Assembly: GCA_017656255.1 (NCBI GenBank)
Contig: JACDOE010000001.1
Coordinates: 310,001-374,000, forward strand
Direction of reading: 5' to 3'
DNA from: Bacillaceae bacterium
GTDB taxonomy: Bacteria; Bacillota; Bacilli; JACDOE01
Length of the DNA: 64,000 nucleotides
In this document: piece after piece, positions 4,152-19,882 of the stretch
Layout: each line of letters begins with the position of its first letter
Numbering within the stretch: the first letter of the stretch is position 1
Notes under the pieces: generated by a model
Databases searched by the model: none
What the model was told of the DNA's origin: nothing
What the model saw: only the letters and a program-made list of their open reading frames with translations
Position numbers and translations under genes: made by a program

Positions 4152-4187
4152 CATAAAAAAAACCGGAGACAATACGTATCTCCGGTT
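4152..4187 (-). terminator. Terminator of the AbrB-like operon
   Basis: On the minus strand a 9-bp stem (AACCGGAGA with TCTCCGGTT) with a 9-base loop is followed by eight T residues, 18 bases beyond the stop of the 95-residue hypothetical gene. Confidence 0.85.
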
Positions 4188-4204
4188 GGAATCATTTCAT
4201 GAAA

Positions 4205-4492
4205 TTACAGCAGGCGTTCCCTGGCTGTCTGATAATCCATGTCCAGTTCAAAAATCATTTTGAGATTGGTTTGAAATTGAATCCGTTGCTTCATCGACTG
4301 AAACAGAACAGGTTTTTCATTTTTCAGGACCGTAACCATTTCCACGATGGGAGGCGGGGTATCATCGTTTCTGCGCATGACCTCATCGATAAATTGAAGC
4401 CCTTTTTCAACCTCGCTGATTTCATCCCGGACCTGCTTTAAGAACGTCCAGAAATCCGTTTTGACGTTTTCATTCGTTTTGGATGGATTCAT
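4205..4492 (-). CDS. Hypothetical protein coupled to AbrB-like regulator
   Basis: This 95-residue soluble, charged protein is not recognised. It looks mostly alpha-helical, with no cysteines, signal peptide or membrane segment. Its start codon overlaps the stop of the upstream AbrB-like gene in an ATGA arrangement, so the two are probably translationally coupled. A strong terminator follows, making a two-gene operon. The coupling suggests it acts with or modulates the regulator; that is inference from position only. Confidence 0.7.
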   Translation of the reverse strand: MNPSKTNENVKTDFWTFLKQVRDEISEVEKGLQFIDEVMRRNDDTPPPIVEMVTVLKNEKPVLFQSMKQRIQFQTNLKMIFELDMDYQTARERLL

Positions 4493-4764
4493 GTCAACAC
4501 CTTCTCGGGTTCTTCTGTTTTAAACTGCTGTTTCACATCTTCGGAACAGCTTTTGCAAATAATCTTATCTTTAAAAAGCAACAAATCTTCCGTACCCTGA
4601 CAAAAACAGCAGGTGGGATCGTATTTCTCCAGGATGATTTTATCTTTATCCACATAGATTTCTACGGGATCATGAACATTTATATTTAAATGCTTGCGTA
4701 TTTCTTTGGGTATGACAATTCGACCGAATTGATCCAGTTGTCTGGTGATACCGACGGTTTTCAT
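4489..4764 (-). CDS. AbrB/MazE-type transition-state regulator with cysteine-pair tail
   Basis: This is a 91-residue DNA-binding protein. Residues 1-50 form an AbrB swapped-hairpin domain (TRQLDQFGRIVIPKEIRKHL, then DPVEIYVDKDKIILEKY), very close to B. subtilis AbrB and Abh. The C-terminal half differs: in place of the usual AbrB oligomerisation domain it has two cysteine pairs (CCFC near residue 54 and CKSC near residue 74) that could bind zinc or form disulfides. AbrB-family proteins repress post-exponential genes. The downstream gene overlaps by four bases. Which paralogue this corresponds to is uncertain. Confidence 0.85.
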   Translation of the reverse strand: MKTVGITRQLDQFGRIVIPKEIRKHLNINVHDPVEIYVDKDKIILEKYDPTCCFCQGTEDLLLFKDKIICKSCSEDVKQQFKTEEPEKVLT

Positions 4765-4842
4765 GAAAATTCTCCCCTCCCCGATATGATTAAAATTTCT
4801 CCATCATATTAATACGAATTTTGACACCTTTTTCTGTCCGTC

Positions 4843-4893
4843 AAAATAAAAAACCGGGGTCAAACGCACCTACCTGGTGGCTCGACCTCCGGT
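4843..4893 (-). terminator. Terminator of the isocitrate-dehydrogenase-like gene
   Basis: On the minus strand ACCGGAGGTC pairs imperfectly with GACCCCGGT, enclosing a small inner hairpin (CACC with GGTG). A T-rich run follows, 36 bases past the stop codon. Confidence 0.6.
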
Positions 4894-4928
4894 ATTCATA
4901 AAATATTTTATTTTCATCAGGTATCTGC

Positions 4929-6011
4929 CTAGAAATTCTGCATGGTAGACCAGACATCCAGTTTGGTTTGAATTTTCTTGATCACTTCATCCGTGAACTG
5001 GCTGGTTGTCGCGCTCCCCCCCAGATCGGCTGTACGGACGCCTTCCCGGACGCATTCGATGGTGGATTCATAAATGGCACGGGAAGCCAGGCTCGCCTGC
5101 CTGTCTTCAAAATAAGTAAGCAGGGAGGCACAGGCCAGTATCATGGCCATCGGATTAGCGATGTTCTTTCCTTCCAGTGTCGGGGCTGTTCCGTGTGGTG
5201 CCTCGGCCATCACCGTTTTAATGTTGAAATCATCATCAAAACTTAACAGCACAGATTCGGCTCCGGCAATGGAACCAAACATCTGTAACACCATGTCACT
5301 TAAACAATCCCCGTCACGGTTAAGAGCCGGGATGACCATCGGGTCTCCTGCTGAATTCAACAGCAGGGCATAGGTGGCATCGATCAATTGCGGCTCATAG
5401 GACACATCGGGATATCGCTTACTCGCTTCATCCATTTCTTCTTTCAGCATACCTTCATATACCGGGCTGACGGTATATTTGGGTCCGCCAAAAACTTTCC
5501 CGTTTAATTTGCGGGCATGCTGAAATGAAAATTCAGCCACGGCCCGGCAAGTTTTACGGTCGATTTTCTCCGTTCGGAAGGCGATTTCCTCAACGCCGTC
5601 ACCTTCTCTCCACTCCTCGGCTCCATAGGCATCTCCCACGGCCATTCTGACAACGGAGATCGGGGCGTAGGCTCCGGCGACAGGGCGAATTCCCGGAATT
5701 CTTCGACCGGTCCGAACAATTACTTTTCCGTCGATTTCATTACGCAAGATGGCATTGGGGCTTCCTACATCTCCCTTTGCTTCAGGCGTAATGGTCGCCG
5801 CTTTGATTCCGAATCCTGTTCTGGCCATTGCCTGCGCGGCTTCATAGACCACCTGGTTGTCTGTCTTTCTGCGGTTCTCAAGGCTGAGATCATAGGTTTC
5901 AAACTGAATGTCAAACCCGATCACGTCCGGTTGAAGGACACGAATCGCTTCATCCAGTAGTTCCTGTCCTGTTTGATCTCCTTGCATAACCACAACCGTT
6001 TTAGCGGCCAT
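4929..6011 (-). CDS. Isocitrate/isopropylmalate dehydrogenase family enzyme
   Basis: This is a short-type (360 residue) member of the beta-decarboxylating dehydrogenases, which oxidise a 2-hydroxyacid and decarboxylate it with NAD or NADP. Visible landmarks are an N-terminal QGDQTGQE (family norm GDGIGPE), the metal-binding segment DGDCLSDMVLQMFGSIAG and the cofactor loop APHGTAPTLEGKNIANP. It is much shorter than the usual Bacillus isocitrate dehydrogenase Icd (about 420 residues) and is not obviously LeuB. Isocitrate is the likeliest substrate; homoisocitrate or tartrate-like acids remain possible. ATG 6011 is preferred over GTG 6020, because the GTG is part of the AGAGGTG ribosome binding site. 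Confidence 0.85.
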   Translation of the reverse strand: MAAKTVVVMQGDQTGQELLDEAIRVLQPDVIGFDIQFETYDLSLENRRKTDNQVVYEAAQAMARTGFGIKAATITPEAKGDVGSPNAILRNEIDGKVIVRTGRRIPGIRPVAGAYAPISVVRMAVGDAYGAEEWREGDGVEEIAFRTEKIDRKTCRAVAEFSFQHARKLNGKVFGGPKYTVSPVYEGMLKEEMDEASKRYPDVSYEPQLIDATYALLLNSAGDPMVIPALNRDGDCLSDMVLQMFGSIAGAESVLLSFDDDFNIKTVMAEAPHGTAPTLEGKNIANPMAMILACASLLTYFEDRQASLASRAIYESTIECVREGVRTADLGGSATTSQFTDEVIKKIQTKLDVWSTMQNF

Positions 6012-6398: not shown

Positions 6399-6719
6399 AT
6401 GAGTTTTCAGGATCAAGATATAATGGAAGATTTGAAACAGGATGAGACTGCTCTGGTTAAAACCTATGCCTCAGTTTTGACGGGAACCAATTGTCCGGTA
6501 TTGCAGGAGGACCTGACGCAGTTGTTCAACAATTGTTTACAAAATGTGTCCCTTGTCTCTCAGCAAATGAGTGATTATAATTGGATAACCCCGCAATTTG
6601 CCCCTGAAAGCAGTGTGGAGCAGGCTGTGATGACATACAAACTTAAAAAGAATCAGCTTGAACAAATGGCTGTCGTCGATATACAATCAAAAAAACAACC
6701 CGGCGTCCAGGCCACTTGA
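6399..6719 (+). CDS. CotF-like spore coat protein
   Basis: The 106-residue product has a typical CotF-family helix pair: DIMEDLKQDETALVKTYA near the N-terminus and LTQLFNNCLQNVSLVSQQM in the middle. These align with the four-helix coat/ferritin-like proteins of Bacillales spores. It is preceded by AGGAGG and forms a two-gene operon with the shorter CotF-like gene. No membrane segment or export signal is present, as expected for proteins assembled on the forespore surface from the mother cell. Confidence 0.8.
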   Translation: MSFQDQDIMEDLKQDETALVKTYASVLTGTNCPVLQEDLTQLFNNCLQNVSLVSQQMSDYNWITPQFAPESSVEQAVMTYKLKKNQLEQMAVVDIQSKKQPGVQAT

Positions 6720-6760
6720 TAAAAAAGAAAAAATATTTTAACAATTTTCCGCTTTAAAGG

Positions 6761-6789
6761 GTGACAATAAAATTGGAATCCGTTATAAT
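6761..6789 (+). promoter_or_regulatory. Sigma-A promoter of aroA
   Basis: GTGACA (6761-6766) and a perfect TATAAT (6784-6789) are separated by 17 bases. The element lies about 45 bases before the aroA start in an intergenic AT-rich stretch. Confidence 0.75.
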
Positions 6790-6834
6790 AACACTTAATA
6801 TTTTCAAGAGTAAATATGGGAGAGGTGGAGAGAG

Positions 6835-7926
6835 ATGAGCAATACCCAATTACAAGAGTTGAGGGATCAGGTCGATCGCATCAACCTGCAGATCCTGGAA
6901 TTGATCAATGAAAGAGCCAGACTGGTTCAGGAAATCGGAAATGTCAAGATCAAACAAGGTATTAACCGTTTTGACCCCGAGCGCGAAAGAGAAATGCTGG
7001 ACAAGTTAATCCAGAAAAATGAAGGCCCCTTTAAGAACAGCACGATCCAGCATCTGTTCAAACAAATTTTCAGCGCATCTCTGGAACTGCAGAAAGATGA
7101 CAATCGCAAAGAACTGCTGGTCAGCCGCAAGAAGAAAAAAGAAGACACCGTGGTCGACATCAAAGGTGTCGAAGTGGGTAACGGTGAACCGGTTCTGATG
7201 GCCGGACCCTGTTCAGTCGAAAGCCTGGAACAGGTCAGAAAAGTGGCGGAAAATCACAAAAAACAGGGACTGAAATTGTTGCGTGGTGGCGCTTTTAAAC
7301 CGCGTACCTCCCCTTATGACTTTCAGGGACTGGGTGTGGAAGGCCTGAAGATTCTGCGTGAGGTTGGCGATGAATTCGGACTCAGAGTCATCAGTGAAAT
7401 TGTGGATCCGGGTGACATTGACACCGCTGTGGAATATCTGGACGTTATTCAAATCGGGGCTCGCAACATGCAAAACTTCTCTCTCTTGAAAGCAGTCGGA
7501 AAAACAGATAAACCCGTCCTTCTCAAAAGAGGCCTGTCTGCGACTATCGAAGAATTTATCTATGCGGCGGAATACATCGTATCCAGCGGAAATCCCAATG
7601 TGATGCTCTGTGAACGGGGAATTCGTACTTATGAAAAAGCAACACGCAATACCCTGGATATTTCAGCCGTTCCCATTTTGAAAGGCGAAACACACCTGCC
7701 CGTCATCGTGGATGTGACTCATTCAACGGGTAGAAGAGATCTTCTCTTGCCCATGGCCAAGGCGGCGCTGGCATGCGGTGCAAATGGCGTCATGATTGAA
7801 GTTCATCCGGATCCGGATGTCGCACTGTCTGATGCCAAACAGCAAATCAACATTGAACAGTTTAATGATTTTCTGGAAGGATTGTATCAATCCGGCTTGT
7901 TTCCAAAACCGGAAATCACGGTTTAA
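6835..7926 (+). CDS. aroA: Bifunctional chorismate mutase / DAHP synthase
   Basis: The enzyme catalyses the first step of aromatic amino acid synthesis, condensing phosphoenolpyruvate and erythrose-4-phosphate. Its N-terminal AroQ-type chorismate mutase domain (residues 1-90, [20 protein letters not shown]) mediates feedback inhibition in Bacillus. The DAHP synthase type I-beta domain follows a basic linker at 100-105 and shows [33 protein letters not shown] and [11 protein letters not shown]. The length of 363 matches B. subtilis AroA (358). The gene lies two genes upstream of ccpA, as in Bacillus, where aroA adjoins ccpA. Confidence 0.96.
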
Positions 7927-8011
7927 TAACTTTATAAACCAGGGGATGCGGTGTTATAATAGCTAATGAAGCTTCAAACGGATAATGATACAGATAAGGA
8001 TGACAACGCAG

Positions 8012-8281
8012 ATGAATATGACCGCATTTCTCATCAGTCTTTTGGCTTTCGTGGCCAACGTTCCACTCGGCATGTGGCGGGAGACAACCCGAAAATTTTC
8101 ATTAAAATGGTTCATCGCCATACACGCCTCAATTCCATTGATTATCTATTTACGGGTCCTGTTTGAAATTTCAATATGGTGGATCCCGGTCAACATTGCG
8201 CTTGCCGTATTGGGTCAATGGATGGGGGCACGATTTCATCACAGGCGAATTCAACTCATCAGTCAAGATCAACCGGAATAG
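8012..8281 (+). CDS. Small membrane protein of unknown function
   Basis: This is an approximately 89-residue protein with about three hydrophobic segments (TAFLISLLAFVANVPLG, WFIAIHASIPLIIYL, IPVNIALAVLGQWMGA) joined by basic loops (MWRETTRKFS). The start is uncertain: the frame opens at ATG 7985, but an AAGGA lies 12 bases before ATG 8012, where the first hydrophobic helix begins naturally. TATAAT at 7955-7960 may be its -10 element. A strong terminator follows immediately. The family is unknown, but the membrane topology and the terminator argue that it is a real gene. Confidence 0.65.
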   Translation: MNMTAFLISLLAFVANVPLGMWRETTRKFSLKWFIAIHASIPLIIYLRVLFEISIWWIPVNIALAVLGQWMGARFHHRRIQLISQDQPE

Positions 8282-8309
8282 GGCCATCAGAGATGGCCTT
8301 ATTTTTTAT
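8282..8309 (+). terminator. Terminator after small membrane protein
   Basis: A 7-bp GGCCATC/GATGGCC stem with a 3-base loop is followed by TTATTTTTT, directly after the stop codon. Confidence 0.85.
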
Positions 8310-8385
8310 GTGATTTTGATCACGTCGTTTACCCGTCTGGACAGGGTATGATAGAATGAACAATAAAAGGAAAGAGTGATGTCGG

Positions 8386-8823
8386 ATGGCAGTGATCTAT
8401 TCAAGGATTCTAGTGGCTTATGACGGATCCGAACTGGCGGAGAAGGCACTGGAAACGGCAAAAAATTTTGCAGAACAGGACCCGAATGTATCGATTGATG
8501 TCGTGACGGTTCAGGAGCCGTTCAAACTTTACGGTTATCACATTGAACTCTCCTATGAACAGATTCAGAAACAGTATGAACAGGACCTGAAAGAGATGAT
8601 GAATGAAGTGAGGGAGAAGTTGGCCGATCTTCCGAATCAGACACAGATGGTTGAGTTAAAGGGGTATCCGGCAAGAGAAATTATTGAATATGCTGAAAAA
8701 AACGACATTGATCTGATTGTCATGGGAAGCAGAGGCCTGGGTAATATCAAGGAACTGTTTTTGGGAAGTGTCAGCCACAATGTTGTGCAACACTCCCCAA
8801 AACCTGTCCTGATTGTCAAATAA
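8386..8823 (+). CDS. Universal stress protein, UspA family
   Basis: This 145-residue single-domain Usp opens with the beta-strand signature ILVAYDGSELAEKAL. It keeps the ATP-binding loop G-2x-G-9x-G-S near the C-terminus (GSRGLGNIKELFLGSVS), so it should bind ATP. Such proteins form cytoplasmic dimers and protect against stress by poorly defined means. The gene is a single transcription unit bounded by terminators on both sides. TAGAAT at 8352-8357 is a weak possible -10 element. Confidence 0.93.
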   Translation: MAVIYSRILVAYDGSELAEKALETAKNFAEQDPNVSIDVVTVQEPFKLYGYHIELSYEQIQKQYEQDLKEMMNEVREKLADLPNQTQMVELKGYPAREIIEYAEKNDIDLIVMGSRGLGNIKELFLGSVSHNVVQHSPKPVLIVK

Positions 8824-8837
8824 AATAAGAAACTGAG

Positions 8838-8866
8838 GAGGTGCAAAATTTTTTGCACCTCTTTTT
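8838..8866 (+). terminator. Terminator of the usp gene
   Basis: An 11-bp perfect stem (GAGGTGCAAAA with its complement) with a 2-base loop is followed by five T residues. Confidence 0.9.
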
Positions 8867-9004
8867 ATTTGTCTGTTCCCGGTGTCAGCGGGTATTTATA
8901 ATCGATAAAACACAGGAAAACAGGGCAATCATAGACGATGAATTTATCTGTCATGTGTCCTGGTCCTGGTTAAAAAACGTTAAACTTTTTTCCGGCGGAA
9001 TATA

Positions 9005-9033
9005 TTGCGAGACTAAGATTTTTGTCGTATGAT
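9005..9033 (+). promoter_or_regulatory. Sigma-A promoter of ccpA
   Basis: TTGCGA (9005-9010) and TATGAT (9028-9033) are separated by 17 bases, 70 bases before the ccpA start. The rest of the 237-base gap between the usp terminator and ccpA holds no supported gene. Confidence 0.6.
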
Positions 9034-9046
9034 TACAATAAATTTA

Positions 9047-9060
9047 TGAAAACGATTTTG
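9047..9060 (+). promoter_or_regulatory. Possible cre site in the ccpA leader
   Basis: TGAAAACGATTTTG matches 12 of 14 positions of the catabolite-responsive element consensus TGWAANCGNTNWCA, with mismatches at the last two bases. It is a partial palindrome just downstream of the predicted transcription start, a position compatible with autorepression by CcpA. Confidence 0.35.
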
Positions 9061-9103
9061 AAAACCAAAATATAGGAAATTTAAAAAGAAAGAGGGATAT
9101 CTC

Positions 9104-10132
9104 ATGCCGGTTACGATTTATGATGTTGCCCGTGAAGCGGGTGTATCCATGGCGACCGTTTCCCGTGTTGTAAACGGGAATCCCAACGTTAAACCCGCTA
9201 CACGTAAAAAGGTCCTGGATGTGATTGAAAAACTGGGTTATCGTCCCAATGCGGTGGCGCGCGGACTCGCCAGTAAACGGACGACCACGGTAGGAGTCGT
9301 CATCCCCGATATATCCAGTCCGTTGTTTGCAGAACTGGCCCGGGGGATTGATGATATCGCCAATATGTATAAATACAATATCATTCTGGGGGATTCGGAT
9401 CAGAATGTGGAAAAAGAAATCAGTCTGATCAATACCCTTCTGGAAAAACAGGTAGATGGCATGGTTTTTATGGGGGGTGCGATCACACCGGAGCACACCC
9501 GGACGTTTACGACATCTTCTGTCCCGATCGTCCTAGCCGGGACACGGGATCCGGAAGGGAAACTTCCCTCGGTCAACATCGATCATTTTCAGGGAGCTTA
9601 TGATGCGACAACCCGCTTGATCAATGGCGGACATCAAAAAGTGGCCATGATAACAGGACCACTGGAAAATCCCCTTCGAGGCAGAGAGCGTTATGAAGGA
9701 TACCTTCAGGCCCTCAAAGATGCGGGAATTACACCCCGTGAGGAATGGATCCGTTCCGGCGAATTTCGATATGAATCCGGTCTGGAACTGGCTCAGTATT
9801 TTCTTGATCTGGATGAAGACCTGCGACCCACAGCGATTTTTGCCGGCAGTGATGCCCTCGGCATCGGTGCTATCCATGCCGTTCAGGATCGAGGATTGTC
9901 CGTCCCGGATGATATTGAGGTCATGGGGTTTGATAATATCAGACTGGCGGAGATGGTTCGTCCGCGACTGACAACGGTTGTACAACCGATATACGATATC
10001 GGGGCTGTCGCCATGAGGCTGTTGACCAAATTAATGAATGGAGAAGACGTGGAGCAGGATGATGTTGTGCTACCCCATCGTATCGAAGAAAGAAACTCAA
10101 CCAGACCGTTGTCATCTTCCGCAAACAAATGA
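9104..10132 (+). CDS. ccpA: Catabolite control protein A
   Basis: CcpA is a LacI/GalR-family regulator that, with Ser46-phosphorylated HPr, binds cre sites and controls carbon catabolite repression. The 342-residue protein begins with the LacI helix-turn-helix and hinge ([22 protein letters not shown], then [25 protein letters not shown]). The periplasmic-binding-protein-like core follows ([21 protein letters not shown], and [19 protein letters not shown] near the end). AGAGGGA precedes the ATG. Position before motPS and acsA reproduces the Bacillus ccpA locus, which separates it from the many ribose/maltose LacI paralogues. Confidence 0.95.
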
Positions 10133-11038: not shown

Positions 11039-11807
11039 TAAACGGAGCAGGCCGAATCAGAGGCCAAAACGGGGCGCTCCCATGTGGATGACAACCTATT
11101 CCGATATGATGACGCTGATCCTGGTATTTTTTATTTTGCTTTATGCATTTTCAGAAGTAGATATCTCAAAATTCAAGGCTATTTCCTATTCCTTTGAGAA
11201 CCGTCCGATCTTTGAATATCGCTCATCCGTGATTCCCATGGAGTACAATATGTCTGTCCCGGGACGGCAGCAGGGAAAAGGGGTCATGGAACAGGATCGG
11301 AATGAGGACATCGAGCGTTTGGGGCAGGAGGCACTTAGAAATCAGCAGCGGTTAAATGAAGTTTTGCGAGTCGTGAATCAATTCCTTGAAAGCAATCACA
11401 TGCAGCATGCCGTTTCCGCCACACGGGATGAAAGGGGGATTGTGCTCGTCTTACAGGATCGGGTTCTTTTCAATTCCGGGGAGGCTGAGATTCTGGACGG
11501 TGCCCTTCCGTTTCTGAATAAAGTGGCTGATCTGATTGAAGCTCTTCCCAACCAGGTTGAGATTCAGGGACATACAGACAATGTTCCGATTTCCAGTTTT
11601 CGATATCCGTCCAACTGGGAACTTTCCACGGCCAGAGCCAGTCGTGTCGTCCGTTATTTTGTCGAAGAGAAAGGACTGGATCCCTCACGCTTTGTTGCTG
11701 TCGGATATGGGGAATATAAACCCGTTGCCTCCAATGACACGGAAGCCGGCAGACAAAAAAACAGGAGGGTAGAGATTGTTATCAATAACCTTGAAGAGCC
11801 TGAATAA
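11028..11807 (+). CDS. motS: Flagellar stator subunit MotS (MotB-type)
   Basis: This peptidoglycan-anchoring partner of MotP has 259 residues. The single transmembrane helix carries the ion-binding Asp in TYSDMMTLILVFFILLYAFS, and the C-terminal OmpA-like domain has the cell-wall binding motif (VEIQGHTDNVP, NWELSTARASRV, GYGEYKPVASN, NRRVEIVI). The valine after the LIL run resembles sodium-type MotS helices; that assignment is by family knowledge. AGGAGGAAGGGAG before ATG 11028 fixes the start inside the end of motP, indicating coupled translation. A terminator follows. Confidence 0.94.
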   Translation: MLFNKRSRPNQRPKRGAPMWMTTYSDMMTLILVFFILLYAFSEVDISKFKAISYSFENRPIFEYRSSVIPMEYNMSVPGRQQGKGVMEQDRNEDIERLGQEALRNQQRLNEVLRVVNQFLESNHMQHAVSATRDERGIVLVLQDRVLFNSGEAEILDGALPFLNKVADLIEALPNQVEIQGHTDNVPISSFRYPSNWELSTARASRVVRYFVEEKGLDPSRFVAVGYGEYKPVASNDTEAGRQKNRRVEIVINNLEEPE

Positions 11808-19482: not shown

Positions 19483-19520
19483 AGCACCGGTCTCCCGTAA
19501 GGGGAAACCGGTGCTTTTTT
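19483..19520 (+). terminator. Terminator of tyrS
   Basis: AGCACCGGT pairs with ACCGGTGCT, extended inward by TCCC/GGGG, and ends in six T residues. Confidence 0.9.
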
Positions 19521-19563: not shown

Positions 19564-19815
19564 TTAAAAACCAAATTCTTTCTTGATCAACTGTGGAACT
19601 TCACCGGGTTCGGCGTGCCGTTCCGTCTGCTTTTTTGAAAAGACAAGTTTGTCATTAACCGTCACTTCGAACACGCCTCCACCGGAGGGAATCAGCTTGA
19701 TTTCACTGACATCGTAACGATACTGTTCCATGATTTCTTCCGTCACACGGACGGCTCTGGGAAAGTAGTTTCACTTGTTGCAGTATTCAATCTCAATTTT
19801 AAACGGCTGGCTCAT
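19564..19815 (-). CDS. SelW/Rdx-family protein with in-frame UGA (probable selenoprotein)
   Basis: Read from ATG 19815, the frame gives MSQPFKIEIEYCNK, then TGA at 19773-19771, then NYFPRAVRVTEEIMEQ to TTT TAA at 19564: 83 residues if UGA is decoded. The Rdx family (SelW, SelT, SelH; thioredoxin-like redox proteins) has a CxxC or CxxU motif exactly here, after a short beta strand, and later a conserved GGVFEV strand, which is present. UGA therefore falls on the second redox residue (Cys12-Asn-Lys-Sec15). GAGAGGTGAT precedes the ATG. An ordinary call would begin at GTG 19746 and lose the active site. A nonsense mutation is the alternative, but position and hairpin argue for selenocysteine. Confidence 0.82.
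19734..19764 (-). promoter_or_regulatory. Candidate bacterial SECIS element
   Basis: Immediately downstream of the UGA, the mRNA can fold CCGUC (19754-19750) with GACGG (19744-19740), capped by a CGUGU loop and supported by a lower UUUC/GAAA pairing. The apical loop begins 22 nucleotides after the UGA and has G as its second base, fitting the general bacterial SECIS description (loop guanosine 16-37 nucleotides downstream, among the first two loop bases). Confidence 0.6.
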
Positions 19816-19882
19816 CGCACGATCACCTCTCAGTTTATTTCTAAATTCTATTATATAATGGACTGCCGTCTTTTTCCAAAAT

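Follow-up and report, generated by a model that had tools for sequence, protein, structure and literature searches.

Does the in-frame TGA of a short minus-strand frame in a Bacillaceae genome mark a broken gene, or is it read as selenocysteine (Sec)? The frame lies in a window of 64,000 nucleotides, to which all coordinates refer unless another locus is named, and the draft assembly of the genome comprises 36 contigs (98.9% completeness). The initial annotation had proposed a new SelW/Rdx-like selenoprotein with UGA at its redox site. We examined the frame, the Sec machinery of the genome, the relatives of the gene and the RNA downstream of the UGA.

Gene structure and family assignment

A single frame of the Rdx/SelW type, 83 codons followed by TAA, runs on the minus strand from ATG 19815 to TAA 19566-19564. 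TGA 19773-19771 is its only internal stop; the frame is otherwise intact, as had been proposed, and the TGA falls on the U of a CxxU motif that follows the first strand. With TGA translated as U, the product is MSQPFKIEIEYCNKUNYFPRAVRVTEEIMEQYRYDVSEIKLIPSGGGVFEVTVNDKLVFSKKQTERHAEPGEVPQLIKKEFGF, in which YCNKU holds Cys12 and Sec15. Just ahead of ATG 19815, GAGGTGATC can be read directly; its 9 bases are complementary to the 3´ end of Bacillus 16S rRNA, and the good ribosome binding site claimed for this start is indeed present. The features of the locus are as follows.

19564 to 19815, minus strand: selW-like selenoprotein gene of the Rdx family, 83 codons and TAA, predicted from the frame and profiles, and kept in 57 distinct Sec-type relatives
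19771 to 19773, minus strand: TGA codon predicted to be read as Sec15, the U of CxxU (CNKU), from the frame and the same column in relatives
19740 to 19754, minus strand: predicted SECIS apical hairpin, stem CCGUC/GACGG, loop CGUGU, from the fold, the pairing in 57 sequences and covariation
19821 to 19829, minus strand: Shine-Dalgarno-like GAGGTGATC ahead of ATG 19815, read directly
19850 to 19879, minus strand: promoter-like TTGGAA-18 nt-TATAAT, 10 of 12 matches, a consensus match only
19483 to 19515, minus strand: terminator-like hairpin between selW and the convergent tyrS, 14 pairs, loop of 5, a consensus match only

Upstream of selW lies rpsD in the same orientation; a terminator-like hairpin (19911-19885) separates the two. 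Synteny of selW with rpsD or tyrS was sought in the flanks of the relatives and was not found.

For the profile searches, the TGA position was entered as Cys and curated cut-offs were applied. The full frame scores 80 bits against Pfam Rdx (PF10262; cut-off 22.6), 65.1 bits against TIGR02174 (CXXU_selWTH; cut-off 34.2) and 100 bits against NF041051 (SelTWH; cut-off 88). The nearest solved structures by sequence are bacterial SelW-related proteins (e.g. 2fa8), and mammalian SelW (2npb) matches more weakly. Family membership suggests that the product is probably a small protein with a thioredoxin-like fold, and the family and motif together indicate that Cys12 and Sec15 most likely work in the cytoplasm as a redox couple of the thiol/selenol-disulfide type.

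Standard ORF calling returns only the piece from GTG 19746 to 19564, a 60-residue fragment that has lost the catalytic motif, as the initial annotation had foreseen; the gene model is corrected here. A true start at this GTG, and hence a 60-residue protein lacking the redox motif, is the result of the mechanical ORF list, but it is highly improbable. No ribosome binding site of the above kind was found in the sequence ahead of GTG 19746, and the N-terminal strand and the CxxU motif are kept in the relatives. The GTG-started fragment scores 49 bits against Rdx and 42 bits against TIGR02174, and with 59 bits it falls below the NF041051 cut-off, which the full frame passes.

Selenocysteine machinery of the genome

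The four genes that the initial annotation had named as a check, selA (526 bits), selB (379 bits), the tRNA-Sec gene selC (68.8 bits) and selD (411 bits), are all present, and all parts of the bacterial Sec-insertion pathway were found in the genome. The four genes form one cluster of about 8 kb on contig C8, and ARAGORN assigns the tRNA-Sec the anticodon tca. Two further genes, including the fdhA suggested earlier, carry UGA codons of their own: selD has an in-frame TGA at SGUGCK, and the formate dehydrogenase alpha gene (FdhA, contig C9) has one at NRTUHAP. Hairpins are located 3´ of both codons, with the loop AGUUU in selD and GGUCU in fdhA.

Several other features of the cluster (locus L036, own coordinates) were observed. 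The tRNA-Sec gene (11442-11538, minus strand) lies between selA and selB on the strand opposite to them. A PhnCDE-like ABC transporter (6470-9779, minus strand) is located between selD and selA; the binding protein of this transporter scores 344 bits against TIGR04553 (‘putative selenate ABC transporter’; cut-off 250). The tRNA 2-selenouridine synthase MnmH (4170-5483, minus strand) is divergent from selD; with MnmH in the sel cluster, the selenouridine trait seems to accompany the Sec trait in this genome.

Distribution among Bacilli and co-occurrence with SelA

Of the 61 genomes examined first, 10 have a SelW relative, and all 10 bear the TGA; one of these genomes (G001) has an extra Cys-type copy beside the TGA-bearing one. 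Among 399 genomes sampled from the class Bacilli, SelW with an in-frame TGA occurs in 53. SelA, called by the TIGR00474 cut-off, occurs in 85 of the 399, including all 53 genomes with SelW-TGA (Fisher p = 5.6e-44, in a tally that treats the 399 genomes as independent, though they are related). With no exception in 53 genomes of many families, shared ancestry alone can hardly account for this co-occurrence. Of the 85 sampled genomes with SelA, 53 have a Sec-type SelW, which makes it common in Sec-decoding Bacilli, and the remark that selenoproteins are uncommon in Bacillales is too strong when extended to the class.

The TGA occupies the same column in the relatives that were read, which comprise 57 distinct Sec-type sequences with intact frames. 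These alignments agree with two expectations of the initial annotation, namely that close relatives would keep TGA or Cys at this codon and that the TGA is unlikely to have arisen by chance. Cys replaces Sec in a few homologues: TGC or TGT is found in loci L018 and L035, and Cys is found in genomes G289 and G124. G124 is outside the SelA-positive genomes, whereas G289 is SelA-positive, which indicates that Sec is non-obligatory in Sec-decoding relatives. Among the relatives with species names are Halalkalibacter okhensis, H. urbisdiaboli, H. alkaliphilus and Salinibacillus xinjiangensis; work on bacterial SelW function could draw on hosts from cultured genera, Halalkalibacter for one.

A single wrong base would suffice to turn a TGC, TGT or TGG codon into TGA. 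A sequencing error is nevertheless vanishingly unlikely, because the same TGA and the same hairpin (described below) recur in dozens of separately sequenced genomes.

A SECIS hairpin 3´ of the UGA

A hairpin that was absent from the initial annotation is located downstream of the UGA, and it co-varies among relatives. In the present gene, a 5-bp stem begins 16 nt past the UGA and closes a 5-nt loop, CGUGU, with G at loop position 2; a bacterial SECIS is expected to lie shortly 3´ of the UGA and to have a G at the first or second loop position. Folded alone, this sequence gives a hairpin of ordinary stability compared with shuffled sequences (z from -0.66 to -1.34), so the case for a SECIS rests on the comparative alignment.

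The 57 distinct Sec-type sequences were aligned from the UGA without gaps. Positions +16 to +20 pair with +26 to +30 across a loop of 5, and 98.6% of the cells are paired, compared with 26-59% when the partners are slid. Loop position 2 is G in 56 of the 57 sequences; in the exception, L084, a one-codon insertion shifts the register of the hairpin. In an alignment of 27 sequences, all cells (100%) are paired and four of the five pairs show changes on both sides, with 30 both-side-change cells against 6.6 in shuffled alignments; the covariation score is 0.643, and shuffling gives 0.251 on average. In pairs 20-32 and 23-29, two of the five, both bases fall on third codon positions. Watson-Crick pairing holds for each of the two in 56 of the 57 sequences (permutation means 40.8 and 30.0, respectively), and none of 20000 permutations reaches the observed counts, although kinship of the sequences may inflate these tests. 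Compensation at third codon positions indicates that the constraint acts on the RNA and not on the protein. The readable region of the Cys homologues L018 and L035 has no stem. By sequence and pairing, the selW hairpin is a textbook bacterial SECIS, and the 57-gene alignment provides a clean natural demonstration of protein-independent selection on such an element.

These observations bear on two further explanations. The standard ORF is truncated by one TGA, as expected of a pseudogene in which the catalytic Cys codon of a Cys-type SelW had turned nonsense. This origin is very unlikely, given that the TGA stands in the same column of 57 distinct, otherwise intact genes, that SelA is always present in genomes with SelW-TGA, and that downstream synonymous sites are constrained toward the hairpin. 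Low-level UGA read-through occurs in bacteria, and the codon might be decoded not as Sec but by a tRNA near-cognate to it, for Trp or another residue. The strict co-occurrence with SelA and the SECIS-type hairpin leave this reading with very little probability, and the alternative residue in homologues is Cys, not Trp.

Run against the genome, a covariance model built on the selW SECIS has selW itself as its only confident match (next E 0.75). The hairpins of selD and fdhA were missed since their spacing and sequence differ; a model that finds selW alone is therefore unfit to list the remaining selenoproteome.

Proposed mechanism

The gene is almost certainly a functional member of the SelW/Rdx family of selenoproteins, with UGA 19773-19771 predicted to be decoded as Sec via SelB and the hairpin; the frame, the machinery, the co-occurrence and the SECIS covariation all point to this reading at the sequence level. 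As summarised in the 2006 selenoproteome survey, a bacterial SECIS just 3´ of the UGA is bound by SelB, which brings Sec-tRNA(Sec); the latter is made by SelA with selenophosphate from SelD (PMC1794560). In the present gene, ribosomes would start at ATG 19815, SelB on the hairpin just 3´ of UGA 19773-19771 would deliver Sec-tRNA(Sec), and translation would run on past the UGA to TAA 19566-19564. The CxxU product is predicted from its family to act as a small thiol/selenol-disulfide oxidoreductase.

Context of selW in the sel cluster and UxxU variants

In 13 genomes (L062-L074), Sec-type selW adjoins selA within the sel cluster. In L062-L065, L072 and L073 a SelB-like frame precedes it, giving the order selB-selW-selA; in the remaining 7 loci its neighbour is a divergent SelD-like frame. 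The position of selW inside the selD/selB/selA cluster of these 13 genomes, about 6 of them with the order selB-selW-selA, raises the rather unlikely idea that SelW in Bacilli is tied to selenium handling. It might help to provide reduced selenium or to keep it protected, or its UGA and SECIS might respond to how much Sec is available and adjust the translation of selA downstream.

On the minus strand of L080 (G148, contig C30) and L082 (G169, contig C12), a second SelW was observed whose frame holds two TGAs, which form a UxxU motif (YUTGUGFLPKAV). The two host genomes belong to one genus, and the two genes differ by 29 synonymous and 18 non-synonymous codons. One SECIS-like hairpin is present, 3´ of the second UGA. 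The 2026 review gives SelW-like proteins as CxxU with one Sec only (PMC13188914), whereas these variants would carry two.

Comparison with known systems

SelW-like CxxU proteins are among the most abundant selenoproteins of marine metagenomes (PMC2398784) and are an accepted bacterial selenoprotein family in the reviews of 2022 (PMC9312934) and 2026 (PMC13188914). The proposal of a new selenoprotein holds for the gene, which is newly recognised, but not for the family, which was already established (PMC1794560, PMC2398784, PMC9312934). An earlier annotation of this gene as a selenoprotein is possible. Searches of the open-access literature for SelW in Bacilli and for selenocysteine in Salisediminibacterium returned nothing; the breadth of SelW in Bacilli, selW beside selA and the UxxU SelW were likewise not found there and may be known elsewhere.

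The selenoproteome table of the 2006 survey lists SelW-like proteins for Clostridia (Alkaliphilus, Desulfotomaculum), Deltaproteobacteria and Symbiobacterium, and it gives Bacillales 3 selenoproteins in 3 families (PMC1794560). In contrast, the present host belongs to the class Bacilli, where Sec-type SelW is much commoner than that survey could show. The common features of bacterial SelW-like (SELENOW-like; PF10262/TIGR02174) proteins, namely CxxU, the Rdx domain and UGA with an immediately downstream SECIS (PMC1794560, PMC2398784, PMC9312934, PMC13188914), are shared by the present gene. Its best NCBIfam match is NF041051 (SelTWH_Campy, SelT/SelW/SelH family (seleno)protein), a model named for Campylobacter-type proteins, whereas the gene comes from Bacilli. 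By sequence, the family also includes mammalian selenoprotein W (2npb) and the bacterial Rdx proteins (2fa8, 2p0g); the present protein, with 83 residues, is shorter than the chains of these solved structures (96-108). The eukaryotic SECIS sits in the 3´ UTR, whereas the present gene is predicted to use a bacterial SECIS placed in-frame.
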